A stretch of 59,615 bases of DNA from Methanothrix harundinacea (lineage in GTDB: Archaea; Halobacteriota; Methanosarcinia; Methanotrichales; Methanotrichaceae): assembly GCA_001509375.1 (NCBI GenBank), contig LGFT01000011.1:1-59615 (forward strand). The letters are read 5' to 3'. A model generated the notes under the pieces. The model was not told the origin of the DNA. It searched no databases and worked only from the letters and a program-made list of their open reading frames with translations. Every line of letters starts with the position of its first letter. Positions within the stretch are counted from its first letter, which is position 1. Shown piece after piece: positions 144 through 45,954 of this stretch. Both the position numbers and the translations under genes were made by a program.

Positions 144-186
144 ATCAGATTAACTTGATGCAACTCAAATTGTCCTGATAAATAAT
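144..186 (-). promoter_or_regulatory. Promoter with operator-like half-palindrome for the ChlI-like gene
   Basis: Read on the minus strand, this has a TATA-like TTATTTATCA (about 186-177) followed by the imperfect palindrome TTGAGTTGCATCAA (168-155). It aligns without gaps to 287-329 on the plus strand, with 32 of 43 positions identical by hand count. The repeat pair faces outward towards the two divergent genes. The TATA box lies roughly 80-90 nt from the start codon, which implies an untranslated leader of about 55-60 nt. The regulator is unknown. Confidence 0.55.
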
Positions 187-286
187 ATTTGCGGTTTACA
201 TGGTGTCCAGCCCGCCATTGAAAATGAATTGTACCTCGGTCCTCACAAAACTCAAACGTCACAGGTGCACTGGGCGTGCCGCAAGG

Positions 287-329
287 TTTATTTATCAAGA
301 TAAATTGAGTTAACTCAAAATTACCTGAT
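287..329 (+). promoter_or_regulatory. Promoter with perfect palindromic operator for the binding-protein operon
   Basis: A TATA-like TTTATTTATC (287-296) is followed at 305-318 by TTGAGTTAACTCAA, a perfect 14-bp palindrome. The palindrome lies between the TATA box and the expected transcription start near 320, a position where a bound repressor would block initiation. The start codon follows at 345. The same arrangement occurs inverted at 144-186, so one regulator probably controls both directions. Confidence 0.6.
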
Positions 330-2620: not shown

Positions 2621-3643
2621 ATGGATAAAAAGGGGGGAATAACAGGATCGATCTTCTGTCTCTGTCTCCTCATGTTGTCTTTATCGGGGTGTGCTGAAGA
2701 GACGACTCTGCCGTCTGAGACAGTTACCATCGTTGATAGCACAGGACGGTCCGTCGATATATCATGCCCTGTGGAGCGGATAGTCTCCATCACCTCGGCT
2801 GCTTCAGAGGTCATCTGTGCCCTGGATGCTGGTGATAGAATCGTTGGACGCGACTCTTATTCACTCGTCGCACCACATCTCGGGGACGTTCCGGTGGTGG
2901 CAGGAAGCTCCGCTTCGCCAAATATAGAGCTCATCCTTGAGCTCGATCCTGATGTGGTGATCGCCGACACTATGCTATCTGATGACCTGCGTGAGAGGAT
3001 CGAAGAAGCCGGCATACCCGTGATCGTAGAGTCTGCCTGGGACGCCACAACAGTGATCAAGGTTGTACGAAATTTCGGGATGATGCTGGATAAAGAAGAA
3101 CGGGCATATGAGATCATAGGCTTCATCGAGCAATATCAATACATCATCGAGGAACGAATCGCTTCCCTTGAGGAGGCGAATAAGCCTGCAGTATACTTTG
3201 AGTTCTACAAGCCGTACTTCACCTCCTCCTCTGGAACACCCCTCGACAATCTCGTAACTGTTTCAGGTGGGAAAAATATCGCCCGTGAGGAATCCACACG
3301 ATATCCCACCGCAAGCCCTGAGTGGGTCGTCGAGAGAGATCCAGATATCATCATCTCAATCCTTTCTGCCGCGGAGGACATAACCGAGGAGATGCTAAAG
3401 GAAGCGAGGGAGGAGATACTTTCACGGCAAGGATTGAACAGCGTCAAGGCCGTCGAGGATGATCGGGTTTACGTCCTCTGTAGTGCCATTAGAAGCGGCG
3501 TGCTCTCAATAGTCGGTGAGTTTTACCTCGCCAAATGGTTCCACCCCGACCTCTTCGAAGACATCGATCCTGAGGAGGTTCATGAAGAGCTGATCCAGGA
3601 GCTCTTCGGCCAGAAGCTGGAGGGGGTGTATGTCTATCCATGA
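2621..3643 (+). CDS. ABC transporter substrate-binding protein, lipoprotein, copy 3
   Basis: A 340-residue member of the same family, more diverged than copies 1 and 2. The start at ATG 2621 gives MDKKGGITGSIFCLCLLMLS followed by the lipobox LSGC; an ATG six codons upstream would put residues IWVDA ahead of it. Conserved landmarks are TVTIVDSTGRSVDI, the SITSAASEVICALDAGD segment and ELDPDVVIADTMLSDD. The last codons overlap the permease gene in an ATGA, so this copy is the one translationally coupled to the transporter and is probably the original partner. Confidence 0.87.
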   Translation: MDKKGGITGSIFCLCLLMLSLSGCAEETTLPSETVTIVDSTGRSVDISCPVERIVSITSAASEVICALDAGDRIVGRDSYSLVAPHLGDVPVVAGSSASPNIELILELDPDVVIADTMLSDDLRERIEEAGIPVIVESAWDATTVIKVVRNFGMMLDKEERAYEIIGFIEQYQYIIEERIASLEEANKPAVYFEFYKPYFTSSSGTPLDNLVTVSGGKNIAREESTRYPTASPEWVVERDPDIIISILSAAEDITEEMLKEAREEILSRQGLNSVKAVEDDRVYVLCSAIRSGVLSIVGEFYLAKWFHPDLFEDIDPEEVHEELIQELFGQKLEGVYVYP

Positions 3644-4707
3644 GCGAAGATGAAGTGTTTGATGCCGAGGAGGTCTACGCCAGAGCTTCCTGGAAGAAGA
3701 CCCTTTTCACCCTCGTCCTTTTTGTGGCAGTCGCTCTCCTAGCAGTCTTCGCAATATCCATGGGCGCAGCATCCCTGGGAATGGGCGAGTGCTTCCGCGT
3801 CGTCCTGGCCGAGTTCATGCCTGTAGAGGAGGTGAGCACCTTCGCCCAGGTGGTAGTCCTCCAGCTGAGGCTGCCTCGGATACTGATGGCAATCATCACC
3901 GGGATCAGCCTCGGCGTCGCCGGCGCTGTGATGCAAGGGGTCCTTCGAAACCCCCTCGTCTCTCCTTACACCCTGGGCCTCTCATCGGGGGCGGCCTGCG
4001 GAGCCGCCATAGCTATCGTTCTGGGAGTCGGCCTATTGGGAACGGGACGATATATCATCGTCATAAACGCCTTCTTCTTCAGCCTCCTCACCATGGCCGT
4101 CGTCTACGGTATATCCCGGATAAAAGGCACCTCGGTCGAAACACTGATCCTGGCGGGGGTGGCCATGGGCTACCTCTTCTCGGCCGTAATATCCCTCCTC
4201 AAATATACGTCAGGTCACGAAGAGCTGAGAGAGGTCGTATTTTGGTTGATGGGCGGCCTCTATACGGCCAGATGGGAGAACGTGATCATCCTGATCCCTG
4301 CGGTCTTCTTCTTGACCGTCCTCCTGATGCGTTACTCCTGGGACCTGAACGCCATGAGCGCGGGAGAAGAGGTGGCAGTGAGCCTGGGGATCAACGTCAA
4401 CAGGGTCAGGGTGACCTGCCTGACCCTCACCACGATCCTCACAGCCAGCGTTATCGCCTTCACCGGCGTAATAGGATTCATCGGACTGGTCTCGCCTCAT
4501 GTCTGCAGACTGTTGATAGGAAACGACCACCGGTACCTCATCCCCTGCTCGGGTCTGATCGGCGCTCTCCTCCTTCTGGCCTCAGATACAGCCTGCAGAA
4601 CTATGATCTCCCCCACCGAGATACCGGTGGGCATCGTCACATCCTTCATAGGAGTTCCCTTCTTCCTCTACCTTCTGGTGAGGAGAAAGAGGCGGTGGTG
4701 GCAGTGA
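3640..4707 (+). CDS. FecCD/BtuC-type ABC transporter permease
   Basis: A 355-residue integral membrane protein that forms, as a dimer, the pore for uptake of metal chelates. After a cytoplasmic N-terminus of about 25 residues come about ten hydrophobic helices. Family signatures include LQLRLPRILMAIITGISLGV, GAVMQGVLRNPLVSPYTLGL and the ATPase-coupling region near GFIGLVSPHVCRLL. It starts in an ATGA overlap with binding-protein copy 3 and ends in a GTGA overlap with the ATPase. It is the only such permease in the window, so all five binding proteins may share it. Confidence 0.92.
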   Translation: MSEDEVFDAEEVYARASWKKTLFTLVLFVAVALLAVFAISMGAASLGMGECFRVVLAEFMPVEEVSTFAQVVVLQLRLPRILMAIITGISLGVAGAVMQGVLRNPLVSPYTLGLSSGAACGAAIAIVLGVGLLGTGRYIIVINAFFFSLLTMAVVYGISRIKGTSVETLILAGVAMGYLFSAVISLLKYTSGHEELREVVFWLMGGLYTARWENVIILIPAVFFLTVLLMRYSWDLNAMSAGEEVAVSLGINVNRVRVTCLTLTTILTASVIAFTGVIGFIGLVSPHVCRLLIGNDHRYLIPCSGLIGALLLLASDTACRTMISPTEIPVGIVTSFIGVPFFLYLLVRRKRRWWQ

Positions 4708-5474
4708 AACTGACGGTCAGCGATTTAACTTTCGGCTATGATGGAAAGACCACCCTTGACGGCATCTCCCTGGAGATCGAGAAGGGAGATATTGTAAGCC
4801 TCGTGGGACCAAACGGGGCGGGGAAGAGCACCCTGATCAAGTGCATAGACAGGATACTGAAACCTCAAAGGGGCACCGTCTACATCGATGGAAAAGAGGC
4901 AGCTCAGCTGAGCTCCAAGGACTTCTCGAAAATGATGGGATATGTCCCTCAGAGCACGACGGAGGTCTTTCCCTACACGGTTTTTGATATAGTGCTCATG
5001 GGACGAAGGCCTCACATAGGTTGGCGGGTCACTGGAAACGATGTAAAAATCGTCTCGCGAACGCTCAGGTTTATGGGGATCGAGGAGTTCGCATCGAGAT
5101 ACTTTGACGAGCTCTCCGGCGGAGAGAAACAGAAGATCGCCATGGCGAGGGCGCTGGCCCAGGAACCAGAGGTGCTTCTTCTGGACGAGCCCACCAGCAA
5201 CCTCGACATAAAGCACCAGCTCGAGGTTATGAATATCGTAAAGAAGCTCGTCTGTGAGAGAAATATATCTGCCGTCATGGCCATGCACGACCTGAACCTG
5301 GCATCGAGGTTCTCAGACCGCATAGTGATGCTAAAGGATAAAAAGGTCTTCAAGGTTGGCGATCCCAGATCGATCCTCATCTCCGAGAACATCGAACTGG
5401 TCTACGGCGTCAGGGCTGAGGTGATAAAAGACAGCAAAGGCATGCCCTACATCATGCCGATCGAGCCCGTATGA
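4704..5474 (+). CDS. FecE/BtuD-type ABC transporter ATP-binding protein
   Basis: A 256-residue ATPase that powers the permease encoded just before it. It shows Walker A (GPNGAGKST), the Q-loop region (YVPQSTTEV), the signature LSGGEKQK, Walker B (VLLLDEPTSNLD) and the switch histidine in AMHDLNLASRF. GTG 4704 is preferred because it overlaps the permease stop as GTGA and gives VKLTVSDLTFGYDGK. GTG 4698, two codons earlier, is an alternative. The C-terminal stretch after SENIELVYGV matches cobalamin/iron-chelate importers. Confidence 0.92.
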   Translation: MKLTVSDLTFGYDGKTTLDGISLEIEKGDIVSLVGPNGAGKSTLIKCIDRILKPQRGTVYIDGKEAAQLSSKDFSKMMGYVPQSTTEVFPYTVFDIVLMGRRPHIGWRVTGNDVKIVSRTLRFMGIEEFASRYFDELSGGEKQKIAMARALAQEPEVLLLDEPTSNLDIKHQLEVMNIVKKLVCERNISAVMAMHDLNLASRFSDRIVMLKDKKVFKVGDPRSILISENIELVYGVRAEVIKDSKGMPYIMPIEPV

Positions 5475-5562: not shown

Positions 5563-8500
5563 GTGGAAAAAGTGAAGATAGCATATGCCAGCACTCATCC
5601 GACCGATCTATTTCCGCTGATATTAGCCTTTAGAGAGATCATCGACGATGTTGGCGACGTCGCTGAACTGCAGCTGAGATCTGGCGAAGATCTGATGATG
5701 GCTGGCCAGATCGAGGAGTTTGTCCGGATCGCCTCAAAATCTCATCTCGTCATACTTCATCTCCACGGAGGCAAGAAGAGCCTCGCCTGCTTCGATGATC
5801 TCGTCTCAGAACTTGAGGCGGCGGGGGTTCCCATCCATGCACAGGCAACAGCATCCGAACAGGACACCGAGCTCTATAAGCGATCCACCGTCGATAAAGA
5901 AGATTACAGGAGCATAACCAGGTACCTCAACTACGGTGGAAAGGAGAACTTCAAAGGGCTCTTGCTTTACTTGGCCCATCGGTTTGGAGGCTTTGATTGC
6001 GCTGTGCCAGAACCAGAGAGGCCGATCTGGGACGGCATATACCATCCGGATTTTGATCACGTTCCCACCCTTGATGAATATCTCGAGCAGAGACACGCGG
6101 AAGGCCGGCCCACCGTGGGCATCTGGTTTTATAACGGCCTCTGGCAGTCGGGAAATACCGCATTTATGGGCAGGCTGATAGCCGAGATCGAGGGGCAGGG
6201 GGCAAACGTCATCCCCGTCTTCATGTACAGCCTGAAGGACGTCGAGCTGGGAACCCACGGTGCCGAATGGGTGATGGAGAACTACTTCATGAAGGACGGC
6301 CAGCCGATTGTGGATGTTTTGATCAGCTTGCTGATGTTCTCGTTATCCATGTGGGCTTCAGGCGACGACGAGGAGGGCCTTGCCGGAGAAAACGCAACCG
6401 ATGAGGCAAAAGCCAGCGAAAAAGAGGTCTTTCTGACGAAGCTCGGCGTGCCGGTCATCAAGGGGATCATGACCCACAAAACCGAGAAGGAGTGGACGGA
6501 GTCGATCCAGGGGCTTAGCCCCATGGACGTCACCACGAGCATAGCCCTTCCCGAGTTCGATGGACTTCTGATCACCGTGCCTGTGGCAGCGAGAGAGCGC
6601 ACTGAGAGGGATCCACTGACAGGGGCCAAAGCGACCATTTACATGCCGATTGAGGAGAGGGTCGGTAAGATCGTCCGGCTGAGCCTGAACTGGGCGAGGC
6701 TAAGGCACATCCCCAGCGAAGAGAAGAGGGTTGCCATAATATTTCACAACTATCCGCCACGAGACGATCGGATCGGCAGCGCCTTCGGCCTGGATTCGCC
6801 CGTATCGGTGTGGAACATCTTGCGGGATATGGAGGCGGAGGGGTATCGGCTCGATCGGCTGCCCGAAGATGGTCGGACGCTCATCGAGGAGGTGAGAGAC
6901 GGCGTTACCAATAACAGGCAGTGGTCTAGCCCCGTCGAGATGGCCACGAGGGCCGTAGATACTGTCTCTGGAGATCTGTACCGGAAGTGGTTCTGTGAGC
7001 TTCCAGCCGAAGTACAGAACAAGATGACGGAGGCCTGGGGTCCGCCTCCAGGAGATCTCTTCGTTCACGAGGACAGGTTGATCATCCCAGGCATAATAAA
7101 CGGCAACGTCTTCATCGGCCTTCAGCCCCCTCGGGGATTTTTGGAGGATCCGGCAGCCATCTATCACAGTCCCGATCATCCCATCCCTCACCATTACTAT
7201 GCCTACTACCGATGGATAAGAGACGTCTTCGGCGCAAATCTGGTGATGCATATAGGAAAGCACGGATCCCTGGAGTGGCTTCCAGGGAAAGGAGCTGGCC
7301 TCAGCTCCTCTTGCTTTCCTGATATAGCCATATCGGATCTTCCCAACATCTATCCTTACATCATCAACAACCCCGGTGAGGGGACCCAGGCGAAGAGGAG
7401 AAGCTACTGCTGCATCATAGATCATCTGGTTCCAGTGATGCACAACGCCGACACCTATGAGGAGATGGCGGAGCTGGAGGTGCTCTTTCACGACTACCAG
7501 CACGTCGTCTCGGAGGACCCTGGAAAGACGCCGGACGTAGAGAGACGGATCTGGGAGAAGGTCTCTGAGGCGAAGCTCGATCACGACCTCATGGTGGACG
7601 AGGTGGCCGCCTTCTCAGATTTCGACAGCTTCCTCGACCGGCTCCACGATTACATCCACGAGATGGCAGACACCCAGATAAGAGACGGGCTTCACATTTT
7701 TGGAGAGCCACCTGAGGGATCTAGGCTCGACGAGTTTCTCGTCGCCCTCACAAGGCTATCCAACGGCAACGTCCCCTCGATGAGAGAGTCGATGGCAGAG
7801 CTTTTGGGCTACGATTATGACGAGCTTCTGAGAACCAGGGGACAGAAAGGCGGCCACATCATCGAAGAGGTTCACGACCTCTCCCTCAAGCTTGTAGAAC
7901 GTTTTCACCAGGAAAACTTCCGCCCTGACGTGATAGAGGCCTTAGAGGACGAGGTGCTGGGGAAAAGAAGCGAGAAGATGGAGCTGGTCCTCGATTATAT
8001 GGGGAGATCTCTTGTCCCGAGGATAAGAGCGACCACCGATGAGCTGACTGCCGTCCTCTCCGCTTCTCGGGGCTGCTTCGTCCCGCCAGGCCCCTCGGGG
8101 GCGCCCACCCGAGGCATGGCCGATATCCTGCCCACCGGGAGGAACTTCTACTCCGTCGACCCCCAGGCGATACCGTCCCCCGCTGCATGGAAGGTGGGCA
8201 CGGCCCAGGGCGACGCCCTCATCGAGCGGTACAAAAAAGACGAGGGCAAGTATCCAGAGAGCGTCGGCATGGTGATCTGGGGGACCGGCACCATGAGGAC
8301 GAAAGGGGACGACGTCGCCGAGGTCCTCTATCTGATGGGGGTAAGGCCGGTGTGGGAGGCCCAGAGCGGAAGGGTGGAGGGGATCGAGCTGATCCCTACA
8401 GAAGAGCTGGGCCGCCCCAGAATCGATGTGACCCTTCGCATAAGCGGGCTCTTCCGGGACGCCTTCTCCAACATAGTCGCCCTCATCAACGAGGCGGTGG

Positions 8501-9354
8501 AGATGGTGGCGGATCTCGACGAGCCTCATGAGTTGAACTATCTCGCCATGCACGTGGCCGAGGATGTGAAAGAGAAGATCGCCGAGGGGCTCGATCCTCT
8601 CCAGGCGAAGGAGGAGGCCTGCTATCGGATATTCGGCTGTCGTCCCGGCGCTTATGGTGCCGGGGTTTCCGATGCCATAGACGCCAAGAACTGGAAGGAC
8701 GAGCATGACCTCGCCGAGATCTACATCAAATGGGGCGGCTACGCCTACGGCAGGCGAAACTACGGGATCACGGTCCCAGACGATTTTAAGAGACGGCTGA
8801 GCCGGCTCGACCTGACTGTCAAAAACGAGGACACCCGCGAGTACGACATGCTGGACGGCGACGACTTCTACTCTTACCATGGAGGCATGATCGCCGCCGT
8901 CAAGGCCCTCAAGGGAGAGCTGCCAAGATCGTACTGCGGCGACAGCTCCGATCCGGATCGGGTGAAGACCAGGAGCGCTGTCGAAGAGACGAAGCACATC
9001 TTCCGGGCTCGCATCCTCAACCCCAAGTGGATCGAGAGCATGCAGCGGCACGGCTACAAGGGCGCGGGGGACATCTCGAGGATGGTGGACATAGCCTTCG
9101 GCTGGGACGCCACCGCCGAGGTCTTGGAGGACTGGATGTATGAGGCTCTCGCCAATAAGTACGCTCTGGACGAGAAGATGCAGGAGTGGCTGAAGGATGT
9201 GAACCCTCACGCCCTCATGAACATCGCTGAGAGGCTGCTTGAGGCGATCGATCGGGAAATGTGGGACGCCTCCGAGGAGATGAGGGAGGAGCTGAGGGGG
9301 ATATACCTGGATGTGGAGGGGATGCTGGAGGATGACAGCGCACCCGATCGATGA
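5563..9354 (+). CDS. CobN/ChlH-type metal chelatase large subunit
   Basis: A 1263-residue protein of the CobN/magnesium-chelatase H family, normal in length for CobN. These proteins bind the tetrapyrrole and the metal and insert the metal with help from an AAA+ ATPase. Recognisable parts are LHLHGGKKS near residue 65, the GIWFYNGLWQSGNTAF block near 190, the central IGKHGSLEWLPGKGAGLS segment near residue 565, and the late SRGCFVPPGPSGAPTRG, GRNFYSVDPQAIPS and FGCRPGAYGAGVSDAI motifs. The start is GTG 5563 with a G-rich segment about 12 nt upstream. Its neighbours (ChlI-like ATPase, metal-chelate importer) support a cobalt or corrinoid role, but methanogens also insert cobalt by the CbiX/CbiK route, so the true substrate is open. 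Confidence 0.9.
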   Translation: MEKVKIAYASTHPTDLFPLILAFREIIDDVGDVAELQLRSGEDLMMAGQIEEFVRIASKSHLVILHLHGGKKSLACFDDLVSELEAAGVPIHAQATASEQDTELYKRSTVDKEDYRSITRYLNYGGKENFKGLLLYLAHRFGGFDCAVPEPERPIWDGIYHPDFDHVPTLDEYLEQRHAEGRPTVGIWFYNGLWQSGNTAFMGRLIAEIEGQGANVIPVFMYSLKDVELGTHGAEWVMENYFMKDGQPIVDVLISLLMFSLSMWASGDDEEGLAGENATDEAKASEKEVFLTKLGVPVIKGIMTHKTEKEWTESIQGLSPMDVTTSIALPEFDGLLITVPVAARERTERDPLTGAKATIYMPIEERVGKIVRLSLNWARLRHIPSEEKRVAIIFHNYPPRDDRIGSAFGLDSPVSVWNILRDMEAEGYRLDRLPEDGRTLIEEVRDGVTNNRQWSSPVEMATRAVDTVSGDLYRKWFCELPAEVQNKMTEAWGPPPGDLFVHEDRLIIPGIINGNVFIGLQPPRGFLEDPAAIYHSPDHPIPHHYYAYYRWIRDVFGANLVMHIGKHGSLEWLPGKGAGLSSSCFPDIAISDLPNIYPYIINNPGEGTQAKRRSYCCIIDHLVPVMHNADTYEEMAELEVLFHDYQHVVSEDPGKTPDVERRIWEKVSEAKLDHDLMVDEVAAFSDFDSFLDRLHDYIHEMADTQIRDGLHIFGEPPEGSRLDEFLVALTRLSNGNVPSMRESMAELLGYDYDELLRTRGQKGGHIIEEVHDLSLKLVERFHQENFRPDVIEALEDEVLGKRSEKMELVLDYMGRSLVPRIRATTDELTAVLSASRGCFVPPGPSGAPTRGMADILPTGRNFYSVDPQAIPSPAAWKVGTAQGDALIERYKKDEGKYPESVGMVIWGTGTMRTKGDDVAEVLYLMGVRPVWEAQSGRVEGIELIPTEELGRPRIDVTLRISGLFRDAFSNIVALINEAVEMVADLDEPHELNYLAMHVAEDVKEKIAEGLDPLQAKEEACYRIFGCRPGAYGAGVSDAIDAKNWKDEHDLAEIYIKWGGYAYGRRNYGITVPDDFKRRLSRLDLTVKNEDTREYDMLDGDDFYSYHGGMIAAVKALKGELPRSYCGDSSDPDRVKTRSAVEETKHIFRARILNPKWIESMQRHGYKGAGDISRMVDIAFGWDATAEVLEDWMYEALANKYALDEKMQEWLKDVNPHALMNIAERLLEAIDREMWDASEEMREELRGIYLDVEGMLEDDSAPDR

Positions 9355-9418: not shown

Positions 9419-10036
9419 ATGATGAATAAAGATAATTTGGCCACCAGCAGAGAGGTATCCCGTCCACCAGACAGGATAGTCTCTTTGACGCCATCAGCAT
9501 CAGAGCTGATCTGCATATTGGGCGGCATGGATAAGATAGTAGGACGAGATGATCATTCAAGTTTTCCTCCCGGCCTCGATGAGAAGCCGCCTTTGGGGAG
9601 CGGAGTTCGCAGGACGATCAGGGTCGAGGAGGTGCTGGATCTCGACCCAGACGTGGTGGTGGCCGGAAGGCACATCCAACCGGAGACCTTTGAGAAGATA
9701 GAGTCTGCAGGCGTACCCGTGGTCGTCGTCGGGACGAGCTGCGAGACGGAATCGCTCATAAAAAACGTTCGTTCGTTGGGCGAGATGATGGACGCCAGGG
9801 AGATCCTATCACGGCCTGAGCTGAAAAAGACCGATGCCGTGAGGAAACAAAAGGTCTACGTATCTCATCTCTCCCTGAGGCGGGGGCCCCGATTGGTCGG
9901 ATACCTTCTCTATCTGGCTCGATGGTTCCATCCTGAACTCTTCATGGACATCGATCCTGCAGCGGTGGAGAGAGAGATGCTCCGGAAGTTCTACGGGATC
10001 AATCTGGAGGGAAGTTGGGCCTATCCTGAAATATGA
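9419..10036 (+). CDS. Internally deleted binding-protein paralogue (copy 4), probably non-functional
   Basis: A 205-residue reading frame closely related to copy 5 downstream (335 residues). It lacks the signal peptide, starting MMNKDNLATSREVSRPPDRI. It also lacks about 100 residues of the middle: after SLGEMMDA it jumps straight to REILSRPELK, whereas copy 5 has a long connecting helix and most of the C-lobe between the matching points. The deletion is in frame and its ends fall at short GGACG-like sequences visible at both points in copy 5. A cytoplasmic half-lobe could not act as a normal binding protein, so this looks like a decaying gene that has kept its reading frame. Confidence 0.7.
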   Translation: MMNKDNLATSREVSRPPDRIVSLTPSASELICILGGMDKIVGRDDHSSFPPGLDEKPPLGSGVRRTIRVEEVLDLDPDVVVAGRHIQPETFEKIESAGVPVVVVGTSCETESLIKNVRSLGEMMDAREILSRPELKKTDAVRKQKVYVSHLSLRRGPRLVGYLLYLARWFHPELFMDIDPAAVEREMLRKFYGINLEGSWAYPEI

Positions 10037-10060: not shown

Positions 10061-11068
10061 ATGAACAGGAAAATATCTGGAGGTGTCCTCTTGGTCCTCA
10101 TGCTTTTGAGCTGCTCGGGGATCGTCGAGGGTACAGAGACGATCACCATCATCGATGGCATGAACAGATCTGTGGAAGTGCCCTGTCAGCCGGAGCGGAT
10201 AGTCTCCACCACCGCCTCGGCGTCGGAGCTGATCTGTATCTTCGGCGACATGGACGATATCGTTGGCCGGGATGAATACTCCACGTTCCCGCCAGGTCTC
10301 GAGGATATACCTGTAGTCGGGAGCTACAGCAAAACCACCAATGTGGAGCTGGCACTGGATCTGAACCCCGACGTGGTGATATCTGATACCAGCATGCTCC
10401 CGGAGACGATCGAACAGATCGAAGAGGCCGGCGTCCCCGTGGTGATCGTGGGGATGAACTGCCAGCTTGATTCTATCATGTACAACATCCGGGTGGTCGG
10501 CAAGATGATGGACGACCGGGTGAAGGCCGAAGAACTCACCGAGTTCATACAGGGGTACGTGGACCTGATCCAGGAGAGGACCGAGAACCTCGACGATGAC
10601 GAGAAGCCCCTGGTCTATCACGAGTGCCGGGAGTACAAGTCCAACGCGGCAGGCACACCCAAGGACGAGCACATCAACCTAGCCGGCGGCATAAATATCG
10701 CCCACGACGAGTCCGTGGAGAGGCCTATCGTCAGCGCAGAGTGGGTGCTGGAGAACGACCCGGAGATAATCATCACCAGGGTATCAGGCACAGACCTCGC
10801 TACCGAAGAGGTGCTAAAAGCTAAGAGGGACGAGATCCTCTCGCGGCCCGGCCTGAAGGAGACAGCCGCCGTCCAGAACGGAGAGGTCTACGTCTATCAT
10901 CCGTTCTTGAGGAGAGGGCCTCGACTGGTCGGATACCTTCTTTATATGGGAAAATGGTTCCATCCCGATCTATTCGAGGACGTCGATCCAGCGGCGGTGG
11001 AGCAAGAAATGCTCCGGAAGTTCTACGGGATGGATATGGAGGGGACTTGGGCCTATCCTGAGATATGA
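10061..11068 (+). CDS. ABC transporter substrate-binding protein, copy 5
   Basis: A 335-residue, full-length binding protein. It starts at ATG 10061 after AAGGAG. The signal sequence MNRKISGGVLLVLMLLSCSG contains a lipobox-like LLSC. The body has the family landmarks TITIIDGMNRSVEVP, VSTTASASELICIFGDMDDI and ALDLNPDVVISDT, and ends FHPDLFEDVDPA...GTWAYPEI. It groups with copy 4 rather than copies 1-3, since both have PAAVE(Q/R)EMLRKFYG near the end. It presumably feeds the permease at 3640-4707. Confidence 0.85.
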   Translation: MNRKISGGVLLVLMLLSCSGIVEGTETITIIDGMNRSVEVPCQPERIVSTTASASELICIFGDMDDIVGRDEYSTFPPGLEDIPVVGSYSKTTNVELALDLNPDVVISDTSMLPETIEQIEEAGVPVVIVGMNCQLDSIMYNIRVVGKMMDDRVKAEELTEFIQGYVDLIQERTENLDDDEKPLVYHECREYKSNAAGTPKDEHINLAGGINIAHDESVERPIVSAEWVLENDPEIIITRVSGTDLATEEVLKAKRDEILSRPGLKETAAVQNGEVYVYHPFLRRGPRLVGYLLYMGKWFHPDLFEDVDPAAVEQEMLRKFYGMDMEGTWAYPEI

Positions 11069-17152: not shown

Positions 17153-18129
17153 TCCATTAACCCCGCTGTAGTCACCGAGAAGACCGCCTCGCCGTCAGGG
17201 AGGTTCGGCGAGTCCACCAGCCTTGCGATCCTCTTCTCGCCCTTGGACTTTCGGAGGTAGATCCTGAAGGTGGCGGTGTGACCGACGATGTGCCCCCCCA
17301 CCGGCTTTGTGGGGTCTCCGAAGAAGGCGTCGGGCTTTGCCATCACCTGGTTTGTCACCAGGACCACGGCGTTGTTCAGGTCCGCAAACCGCATCAGGGC
17401 GTGAAGATGCTTGTTCAGCTTCTGCTGTCGATCAGCGAGGGTCCCACGACCGACGTACTCGGCCCGGAAGTGGGCGGTCAGGGAGTCGACTATGAGGAGC
17501 CTCACGGGCTTTCCGGACTTCTTCATCTTCTCTGCGAGTTCGAGGGCGGACTCAGCGAGGAGGATCTGGTGGTTGGAGTTATAGGCCCTCGCCACATGGA
17601 TGTTCTTCAAGAACTCCTCGGGGTCCCAGGGATGGTCGGGATCCTCGGAAGGAGGAAGCCCCTCCACCATCTGGACGATCCTCTCGGGTCTGAAGGTGTT
17701 CTCGGTATCGATTATTATCACAGAGCCGTCGAGCCCTCCCATCTCAGGGGGGAGCTGGACCTTCACCGCCACCTGGTGGGCCACCTGGGTCTTGCCTGAC
17801 CCGAACTCTCCATAGAGCTCCACTATCGACTGAGTCTCAAACCCTCCGCCCATAAGAGCGTCAAAGGTCTCGCTGCCGGTCGTCACCTTCCCTACGAGCT
17901 TTCTCCTCTCCATCACCTGGTCGCCGGTCTCAAACCCCCCAATGTCTGCGGCCGCCCGGGCGGAGGCTATGATCTTGGCCGCCGTCGACTCGCCGACGTC
18001 GGCGCAGGCCGCGAGCTGCGCCGGTGAGGCCACCGCCAGGGCCTCGACACTGTTGAAGCCCGCCTCCCTCAGCTTCTCCGCCGTGGCAGGACCCACACCA
18101 GAGAGATCTTCGAGCAATATTTCAGCCAT
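17149..18129 (-). CDS. radA: DNA repair and recombination protein RadA
   Basis: A 326-residue archaeal RecA/Rad51 recombinase that forms filaments on single-stranded DNA and drives strand exchange. Residues 1-60 form the helix-hairpin-helix domain ([20 protein letters not shown]). The polymerisation motif region [11 protein letters not shown] precedes the core. Walker A is GEFGSGKTQ and Walker [16 protein letters not shown]. The DNA-binding loops include [18 protein letters not shown] and [15 protein letters not shown]. It is followed by the phosphatase in a 4-nt overlap, and RPA lies 49 nt upstream, so this is a replication/repair cluster. Confidence 0.96.
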
Positions 18130-23546: not shown

Positions 23547-24905
23547 ATGGACGAAAGAGATCTGGTGAAGCAGGTCAGGGCGTTCGCAAGCTCAGAGCTG
23601 AGAATGAACATTTTGCTCTGTTTAAAAAATGGAGAGAGAGATGTAAATGACTTGCAGAAAGCGCTTGGAGGCAGGAACACCACCATTCTTCACGCGATCA
23701 AGGGTATGATAGACTCCGATCTGGTCATTAAAGGCCGATATGGATACCGATTGACCAATATCGGCCAAATCAAAACGAGCGCTCTGGAATACGTCATGAG
23801 GATCTTCGAGAACCTGGAGACGAACCCCGATTTCTGGCTGAGCCACGACATAAGCTGCATACCCCCAGATTTTTTGGATGGGCTTGGGATGCTCTTTCAG
23901 TCGGAGATCATATTTCCCGACTCTTCGACGCCCCTGAAGTGCCATGATAAATTGGTATCGATGTTGGCCAGGTCGAAGAAGATTTGCGCTATTTTGCCGG
24001 TCTTGATATTTCCTAAAAATTCAGACATATTTTTGAGCTCCCTCCAAAGAGGAAGTCGAGTAGACCTTTTAATAACAGACAAAGTGGTAGAGACCCTCTT
24101 CGATGAGGAAGGGGCCCTATCAACAGAATTTAGGCAGGCTCTCAAGTTCGAGAATTTCAAGCTACGCATGACATCCAGCGACGCGAAACTGGTGCTCATC
24201 GTCACCGAGTCCTTCGTTTTCATGGGGCTCTGGAGACATGACGGGGTGTACGATGTGGGGTCCGGGACGATCTACATCGGAGATTCTGCCGTCACCTGGG
24301 GCATGCGGGCCTTCAAATATTTATTCGACGCGTCCTCCGACGTCGGCGAGGCTGATCTCTTGGAAGTTTATTCATCCTTCAGACGTTCCGCCCTCGATGG
24401 TGGGCGATCGGATGAAGGGCGAGGATCTCCACCTGAAGAGGCCAAGACCATCATGCTCATCGAGGATAACGTGGGCCACGCCGCCTTTATAAACAGGCTC
24501 TTCGAGGAAAACGGCTCGATATGGAACTTCCATCACGCCATCAACCTTCGAGATGGTTTGAGGCGGATCGAGGAGAACAAAGGCGGATCGTTTCTGGTCA
24601 TCGCAGACTACCTCCTTCCCGACGGTCGTGGCCTTGATCTGGCAGGGGATGCACAGAAACCTCAGGAGGTGGGTTTCCCCCTGATAATCCTCACCGGTTT
24701 CGGCTCGGAGAAGATAGCAGTTCAAGCCTTCAAGTCCGGTGCCATGGATTACGTGGTGAAGGACGCAGAGAGCATGCGTAAGCTTCCGGAGATGGCAAAA
24801 GAGGCTCTTCGCAAGTGGGACGAGGATATGCGACAAAAGCCTCCAGAGGGCGACCAGAATCTCGGCGAAACAGAATCCGGCCAGAAAAGGAAGCTCAAGA
24901 TTTAG
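23547..24905 (+). CDS. FilR1-like response regulator: winged helix plus receiver domain
   Basis: A 452-residue regulator. The N-terminal 80 residues are a winged helix (LRMNILLCLKNGERDVNDLQ, then NTTILHAIKGMIDSDLVIK). Residues about 90-260 match the methanogen-specific output domain (DUF1724 type). The C-terminal 130 residues are a receiver domain with acidic pair in LIEDN, phospho-acceptor Asp in VIADYLLPDGRG, Thr in ILTGFG and Lys in YVVKD. It ends in an 11-nt convergent overlap with the kinase gene. In Methanosaeta harundinacea a regulator of this kind (FilR1) is paired with the kinase FilI and controls methanogenesis genes; assignment here rests on domain content and gene order. Confidence 0.82.
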   Translation: MDERDLVKQVRAFASSELRMNILLCLKNGERDVNDLQKALGGRNTTILHAIKGMIDSDLVIKGRYGYRLTNIGQIKTSALEYVMRIFENLETNPDFWLSHDISCIPPDFLDGLGMLFQSEIIFPDSSTPLKCHDKLVSMLARSKKICAILPVLIFPKNSDIFLSSLQRGSRVDLLITDKVVETLFDEEGALSTEFRQALKFENFKLRMTSSDAKLVLIVTESFVFMGLWRHDGVYDVGSGTIYIGDSAVTWGMRAFKYLFDASSDVGEADLLEVYSSFRRSALDGGRSDEGRGSPPEEAKTIMLIEDNVGHAAFINRLFEENGSIWNFHHAINLRDGLRRIEENKGGSFLVIADYLLPDGRGLDLAGDAQKPQEVGFPLIILTGFGSEKIAVQAFKSGAMDYVVKDAESMRKLPEMAKEALRKWDEDMRQKPPEGDQNLGETESGQKRKLKI

Positions 24906-45114: not shown

Positions 45115-45954
45115 TTAGCCCTCCAGTGATCGCATCAGGTTGACCTGGGATAAGGTGGCCACTATCGCCTCTTCAAGCCTCACCGTCTCGGTTCCCTGAT
45201 GCGGTATGGTGTTAATCACGCAACATCCTTCCATCGTTTCGCTGCTCAAGAACGCATCAACGCCGCGTGCGGGCGAGCCGAAGACCACCTCCAGACCACG
45301 CCGTTGGCCCTGACGCACCGTCTGGGCCAGAAGGTCTAGGGTTGCTGGCTTACCACGCCTGGACGTGACCACCACTAGCCCGTCGCTAGAGCGGACGTGT
45401 TCGTCCAGGTTCGGGATGACCTCTGTCTCGTAGCCCCAGTAGTGAGGTATCTCCGATCGGTCTACCGGCTCCGCGGCGAGGGGTTTCAGCGAAAAGACTC
45501 TGACGTTCAGGCGCTGCCCTGCTCTGTACCGCGATGCGGTCTTGAGGGGCAATGGGCGCTCAACACCTATCTCCACCCATGCGCCGTTGTCAGATCCCAC
45601 TTCATCGACTACTAAACCTACTCGATACTCGCCGACCTTGAGCGTTGAAACCTTTGAGCTTGTGGGATGATGAGGGGTGCGCAGCGGGGGCAGAATGCCG
45701 ACGTACCTCAGGGCTCTTTCCCGAGGGAAGAGCCTTTTACGGAGGTACTGGGGCGTCTCTGCGTACTGCAGGACCCGGGATATAAACCTTGAATCGTCGA
45801 ACTCCGGATCTTGGTAGATGACGATCCTGTCCACCCGAAATACCGCAGCAGCCCGCGCGATCGTGCCCACCTTGAGGGTGCGTATCCGCTCGTCCCGCGA
45901 CTCCATCGTTGTGGAGGACGGGATCAAGATGGTCGTCTCGCTGCCACCGATCAT
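45115..45954 (-). CDS. SPOUT-family RNA methyltransferase (putative RNA uridine N3 methyltransferase)
   Basis: A 279-residue protein of the archaeal family often found just before rpl3. It carries a trefoil-knot SPOUT fold, recognisable in AAAVFRVDRIVIYQDPEFDD at the start and VVFGSPARGVDAFLSSE then CCVINTIPHQGTETVRLEEA at the end, where S-adenosylmethionine should bind. An inserted OB-like domain (about residues 95-170) contains VGLVVDEVGSDNGAWVEIGV. It is the first gene of the long ribosomal operon and has a strong promoter 27-37 nt upstream. The target nucleotide is predicted to be in rRNA. Confidence 0.82.
   Translation of the reverse strand: MIGGSETTILIPSSTTMESRDERIRTLKVGTIARAAAVFRVDRIVIYQDPEFDDSRFISRVLQYAETPQYLRKRLFPRERALRYVGILPPLRTPHHPTSSKVSTLKVGEYRVGLVVDEVGSDNGAWVEIGVERPLPLKTASRYRAGQRLNVRVFSLKPLAAEPVDRSEIPHYWGYETEVIPNLDEHVRSSDGLVVVTSRRGKPATLDLLAQTVRQGQRRGLEVVFGSPARGVDAFLSSETMEGCCVINTIPHQGTETVRLEEAIVATLSQVNLMRSLEG

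Follow-up and report, generated by a model that had tools for sequence, protein, structure and literature searches.

The short intergenic region near the beginning of a 59,615-nucleotide stretch of DNA from Methanothrix harundinacea (contig LGFT01000011.1, the whole stretch being referred to here as the window) contains two divergent promoters, each of which carries a 34-bp array of four phased half-sites lying beside a TATA-like box. In several lineages the same array is found again ahead of genes for cobamides, corrinoid uptake or cobalt, and its enrichment over a composition-matched control is strong in families f1 and f6 and weak in f7. The reading that we favour, to which a probability of roughly 0.78 can be assigned, is that the array is the operator of a cobamide or cobalt regulon that is derepressed when cobamide or cobalt is scarce. 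The architecture of the array, its place by the TATA box, its conservation and the set of genes behind it were all observed; binding would probably be cooperative and would block the recruitment of polymerase, with cobamide or cobalt as the likely ligand.

Mirrored promoters and a phased array of half-sites

The segments at 144-186 (minus strand) and 287-329 (plus strand) can be aligned without gaps over 43 bp with 32 identities, a recount that bears out the likeness described in an earlier, sequence-only reading. When both strands of the window were scanned with the minus-strand copy, 32 identities was the best match, followed by 27 and 25, the 27-identity match at 294 (minus) being the plus copy read from the opposite strand. 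The two promoters point outward, one towards a ChlI-like gene and the other towards a transporter operon, and in both a TATA-like box (186-179 on the minus strand, 287-294 on the plus strand) is accompanied by a purine-rich BRE-like stretch, at 281-286 in the transporter promoter. Each box is followed by a palindrome, as had been described: TTGAGTTAACTCAA at 305-318 is perfect, and the minus copy reads TTGAGTTGCATCAA, with perfect half-sites and an imperfect centre. The palindrome had been taken for the operator, but it is too short, forming only the middle of a longer array that was first recognised by eye when the upstream regions of relatives were compared. The full element is TCAA-N6-TTGA-N6-TCAA-N6-TTGA, 34 bp in length, in which four alternately inverted half-sites follow each other at 10 bp, and since this spacing is that of one helical turn all four lie on the same side of the DNA.

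Half-sites begin at 295, 305, 315 and 325 in the plus copy and at 178, 168, 158 and 148 in the minus copy. The operator of the transporter operon (295-328, plus) starts directly after its TATA-like box, reads TCAA-N6-TTGA-N6-TCAA-N6-CTGA, with one mismatch to the pattern, and scores 42.8 bits, and that of the ChlI-like gene (145-178, minus) has two mismatches and scores 37.2 bits. A weaker third operator, listed on the plus strand at 2573-2606 (25.4 bits on the minus strand, 21.5 on the plus), lies ahead of the third binding-protein gene and behind a TATA-like box, TTATATA, at 2549-2555. The sequence-only reading had noted a looser relative of the palindrome before this gene, which is real, but the operator itself is 2573-2606 and CAAGATAA stands at 2556-2563.

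The ChlI-like chelatase ATPase gene (1-97, minus, start codon at 97) is truncated: base 1 is the very end of the contig, which leaves 32 N-terminal residues visible, and this fragment has 90-94% identity to ORFs in three loci (L049, L053 and L063). Downstream on the plus strand are encoded three binding proteins with Peripla_BP_2 domains (345-1367, 1412-2437 and 2621-3643), a FecCD/BtuC-type permease (3640-4707) and an ABC ATPase (4710-5474), for which the best NCBIfam matches, both below cut-off, were BtuC and a corrinoid ABC transporter ATPase respectively, the cobaltochelatase large subunit CobN (5563-9354, TIGR02257 above cut-off), a shortened binding protein of 205 aa (9419-10036) and a further binding protein (10061-11068), the last two again with Peripla_BP_2. 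What had been called a metal-chelate importer can by association be assigned more sharply to putative corrinoid uptake of the BtuFCD type. The expansion of Peripla_BP_2 proteins is very large, with 36 matches to the first binding protein in the window's own genome and at least 42 in three relatives (G012, G016 and G017). Elsewhere in the window, a FilR1-type regulator middle domain is fused to a response-regulator receiver domain (23547-24905), and a match above gathering score to the L4-Archaeoglobi ribosomal protein leader is present, outside the Archaeoglobi, at 45500-45593.

A set of 48 oriented sites, which leaves out sites with three mismatches and those whose neighbour had no label, allowed the element to be described in general terms. 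The spacers share nTTAAn even though these positions lay outside the selection, and no fifth half-site was present on either side. Of the 48 sites, 26 have a TATA-like hexamer whose first base lies between -13 and -2, compared to a mean of 6.5 and a maximum of 13 for shuffled upstream regions, and 12 sites had no such hexamer in the 30 bp tested. With respect to the genes, 29 of 33 sites from the window's family lie between -25 and +40 bp from the called start codon. It might be argued that the bound protein is an activator instead of a repressor, given that FNR-type activator sites of bacteria have the same TTGA-N6-TCAA spacing, but this is improbable for an array that begins at the TATA box, extends over the expected start site and in most cases stops near the start codon, where a bound protein is expected to hinder initiation.

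Enrichment, matrix tests and orthologous loci

Sites were counted against a control of identical composition, namely the pattern reversed, and the 34-bp pattern was scored on its 16 fixed bases. A genome search with TTGAGTTAACTCAA alone, as had been proposed from the sequence, was run and proved uninformative, the 14-bp palindrome giving 32 sites in the window's own genome against 48 for the reversed control at up to three mismatches. At the same tolerance the 34-bp pattern gave 16 sites against 1; the palindrome alone is not enriched, and it is the longer array that carries the signal. Across 50 genomes of the family there were 17 sites against 0 at up to one mismatch, in 15 of the genomes, and 101 against 9 at up to two mismatches, in 43 of them. 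Two families of two-mismatch hits, of the types TCCAATT..GATAAAAATCC and TTAAA..TTTAA..CGGATCAA, are probable false positives in which similar sequence recurs in several g1 genomes, and they were kept out of the matrix described below while still being counted within the 101.

The search was extended to 237 genomes of the class, with counts for families f2 to f7 taken at up to one mismatch. In f6, a second family of the class, 42 sites were found against 1 for the reversed control (25 of 34 genomes), and f4 yielded 6 against 0 (17 genomes). There were no sites in the 17 genomes of f5, and f2 and f3 together gave 0 against 1 in 8 genomes. Enrichment in f7 was weak, at 38 against 22 in 111 genomes, so that the case in this family rests on gene context.

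An independent matrix was built from 46 of the 48 sites, with the orthologue in G012 and the cbiK site of the window's own genome left out and the window itself absent. It ranked exactly the three sites of the locus first in 59.6 kb; the next site in the window scored 14.8 bits, and the maximum over 60 shuffled windows was 13.1. When the A+T-rich intergenic region was shuffled alone, 5,000 times, the maximum was 27.3 bits and the 99.9th percentile 20.3, and the third site taken by itself is therefore only moderately significant. A second model, R1, was made from 44 sites, namely the 48 minus six that were left out of the alignment (L059 15134, L059 15154, L122 6604, L146 4816, L117 6159 and L190 1824) plus two sites of the window. 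In the window's own genome it returned 13 rows with E ≤0.1, representing nine distinct sites, of which two are in the window, one is before cbiK (C105) and six are on C49, in a binding-protein/btuCD cluster, and all nine fall in three binding-protein/chelatase clusters. The best of these matches is the operator at 295-328 (plus), a top rank that is not independent because the window sites belong to the training set of R1.

These tests bear on the proposal that the likeness of the two promoters is the product of a local duplication, or of chance similarity between A+T-rich sequences without regulatory meaning. Archaeal promoters are A+T-rich and share TATA and BRE elements, and the two copies lie less than 200 bp apart, but with a matrix from other genomes picking exactly these promoters, with enrichment over a reversed pattern of equal composition and with a gene function common across families, such an origin is hardly credible.

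Conservation at orthologous operons, on which the sequence-only reading had made its proposal depend, was found in part. The closest of them, in G012, has a 48.5-bit site before the first binding-protein gene, and its counterpart of the third operator (L046 14566) has three mismatches. A more distant orthologue in G049 has a weak site of 22.3 bits at the chlI/binding-protein promoter and a stronger one of 32.9 bits ahead of a later binding protein, and no clear array was seen upstream of the chlI copies in G048 and G014. In G012 the operator and the binding-protein gene are intact, and the divergent chlI next to them (L047 3859-4422) has the look of a remnant. As the same operator stands at both promoters of the window, is kept in G012 and is met again ahead of cobalt and corrinoid genes across the class, the earlier suggestion that a single regulator would control the ChlI-like gene together with the importer is well supported.

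Genes behind the operator and the search for its regulator

The genes that follow the sites include those for BtuF-like binding proteins, BtuC-like permeases and transcobalamin-like proteins, together with cobN, cbiK, cobT, cbiMQO and cbiT. Sites in the window's family stand ahead of binding proteins and cobN (L051). CbiK is encoded behind sites in L115 (15008-15940, identified by PF06180), L065 (10048-10980) and L129 (1182-2117), and all three of these CbiK-type cobalt chelatases appear by eye to have signal peptides, in which case cobalt insertion or corrinoid handling may occur outside the membrane. CobT follows sites in five loci, being identified by TIGR00303 above cut-off in L131 and L132 and by similarity in L209, L210 and L217. 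Giant proteins combining an alpha-alpha toroid with DUF4430 lie behind sites in L114-L117 (L115 was the one scanned), and in L212 the toroid and DUF4430 parts are two separate genes; this combination suggests that the proteins are transcobalamin-like. In other families of the class sites were found ahead of cbiMQO, cbiMNQO, the cbiT operon, thiC, methionine synthase, BtuC-type permeases and CobN accompanied by ExbB/DUF2149/DUF2162 partners; others lie close to cbiB and a corrinoid protein. Scoring assigns the thiC copies to thiC and, below cut-off, to its B12 lower-ligand relative BzaB, so that taken alone they are no pointer to B12.

A labelled gene was present within 400 bp at 36 of the 45 loci chosen by the search tool (9 of 15 from the family search and 27 of 30 from the class search, the latter hardly covering f7), leaving nine loci with none. 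The 30 class-search loci comprised 13 with CbiM, 11 with CbiT and 3 with methionine synthase. Representatives of CbiM, CbiT and CbiK were named by curated models, and the labels for binding proteins and methionine synthase are partly circular, having been taken from proteins first seen beside sites. Beyond the class, 45 loci listed by hand out of 80 were scanned for sites of at least 18 bits upstream of the match, and those of Bathyarchaeota, Methanophagales and Methanocellaceae among them had none; 30 further loci (198,730 bp), nearly all bacterial and mostly from G+C-rich bacteria, likewise gave none.

Some sites precede genes with no known role in B12 metabolism, including those for an alkaline phosphatase, a metallo-beta-lactamase and a protein of 201 aa. 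The last is present as two copies, each behind an operator, in both L195 (5979-6584 and 6966-7571) and L196 (717-1322 and 1701-2306); the copy at L195 5979 was scanned and had no Pfam match, and the protein is a candidate new B12 gene product. In the window's own genome, positions 5471-7000 of L133 (G000, contig C49) contain four tandem units approximately 344-380 bp apart, each headed by a TATA box and an operator that scores strongly (32-41 bits), and with no evident gene, and similar operator sites are carried by L115 at 18681, 19470 and 19852. The units of L133 might represent small RNAs controlled in the same way, or else decoy operators. The binding proteins encoded in L133 at 7041-8285 and 17559-18008 have an N-terminal stretch that by eye resembles dockerin-type calcium-binding repeats, and Pfam found Peripla_BP_2 alone in these two proteins.

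This set of genes is also what has to be considered in asking whether the operator belongs to a metal sensor, NikR- or DtxR-like and responding to cobalt, nickel or iron, with the corrinoid genes following as carriers of cobalt. The products of cbiMQO/cbiMNQO, together with CobN, ChlI and CbiK, handle bare metal, but CobT and BtuFCD-like uptake handle finished corrinoids. NikR, which was detected by its NikR_C domain in 31 of the 32 genomes tested, is equally present in genomes of f5, which have no sites, and none of the three nikR loci in the window's family has one. We consider a metal sensor possible and somewhat unlikely.

Under the cobamide or cobalt regulon that we prefer, two dimers or one tetramer of a regulator, presumably of helix-turn-helix type, would bind the array and cover the DNA from where the TATA box ends to past the start site. 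When cobamide (or cobalt) is plentiful RNA polymerase would be kept off, and when it is scarce the block would lift and the genes of the regulon would be expressed together, these being predicted to comprise importers of corrinoids and of cobalt, surface proteins that bind corrinoids, cobalt chelatases (CobN with ChlI, and CbiK) and cobamide genes (the cbiT operon and cobT). In the window, the operator pair would bring the ChlI ATPase under joint control with CobN and the BtuFCD-like importer.

The regulator itself was not found among the conserved neighbours of regulon genes, which were examined by eye, or in NikR and two ArsR proteins. NikR occurs in genomes with and without sites and was not supported as the common regulator. 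The ArsR protein beside cbiMQO in f6 had no match in G000, G010, G012 and G046. A 181-aa ArsR protein of G131 has a site upstream, its good orthologues are spread over f7 and parts of f4 and f6, and sites of at least 18 bits were found at 7 of 18 loci of its relatives; it too was not supported as a common regulator, with only weak HTH-level matches in f1.

Relation to known systems and significance

Several known control systems resemble the operator in one respect or another. MDR1 of Archaeoglobus and NrpR of methanogens are archaeal repressors that overlap promoters and use sites of the GGAA-N6-TTCC type. They resemble the operator in that their half-sites are short, inverted and separated by 6 bp, lie close to the TATA box or the start site and form several sites per promoter, but both the half-site sequence and the genes are different. 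Bacterial FNR/CRP-type sites (TTGAT-N4-ATCAA) have a core geometry identical to that of the operator, which differs in having four half-sites rather than two, in lying over the start region and in being associated with cobamide genes. The bacterial cobalamin riboswitch governs the same functional genes (btuFCD, cbiMNQO, cbi/cob and chelatases), but as an RNA leader, whereas the operator lies in the core promoter, its first half-site preceding the position where transcription is expected to begin, and there was no Rfam match to a cobalamin riboswitch in the window, L047, L188, L194 or L133.

Rodionov et al. (2003, J Biol Chem) are said to have described a 'CBL-box' signal for a hypothetical B12 regulator in some archaea. 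This would likewise be a DNA signal proposed for an archaeal B12 regulator with genes of the same kind; the four-half-site phasing and the gene list come from the present analysis. The term was not found in the literature searched, with most subscription journals outside the scope of the search, and the same search of titles and the beginnings of abstracts found no description of the operator, which is weak evidence of novelty. A survey of nickel and cobalt use in prokaryotes gives no archaeal B12 operator in the parts consulted (PMC2667541). We would describe the system as a regulon run by a transcription factor, whose phased operator is unusual and to which no known regulator is tied; the signal is possibly the same as the CBL-box.

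Methanogens, like their relatives, rely on methyl transfer by corrinoids, and to our knowledge the manner in which they sense B12 or cobalt has not been settled. A wider proposition, for which the odds seem to us about even, is that a transcription factor responsive to corrinoids, so far undescribed and common to the Methanosarcinia, recognises this operator and does for them what the cobalamin riboswitch does for bacteria. Under its control would come the import and surface capture of corrinoids, the insertion of cobalt, the synthesis of cobamides and, in certain lineages, a methionine synthase, and it may also drive the four tandem units with no evident gene in the window's genome. The operator provides a bait with which the regulator could be isolated. 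It also offers a route to new B12 genes, among which it flags the giant toroid and DUF4430 proteins, the apparently exported CbiK and the CobN paralogues with ExbB/DUF2149/DUF2162 partners, and it hints at what some members of the greatly expanded Peripla_BP_2 families in the Methanotrichaceae may do.
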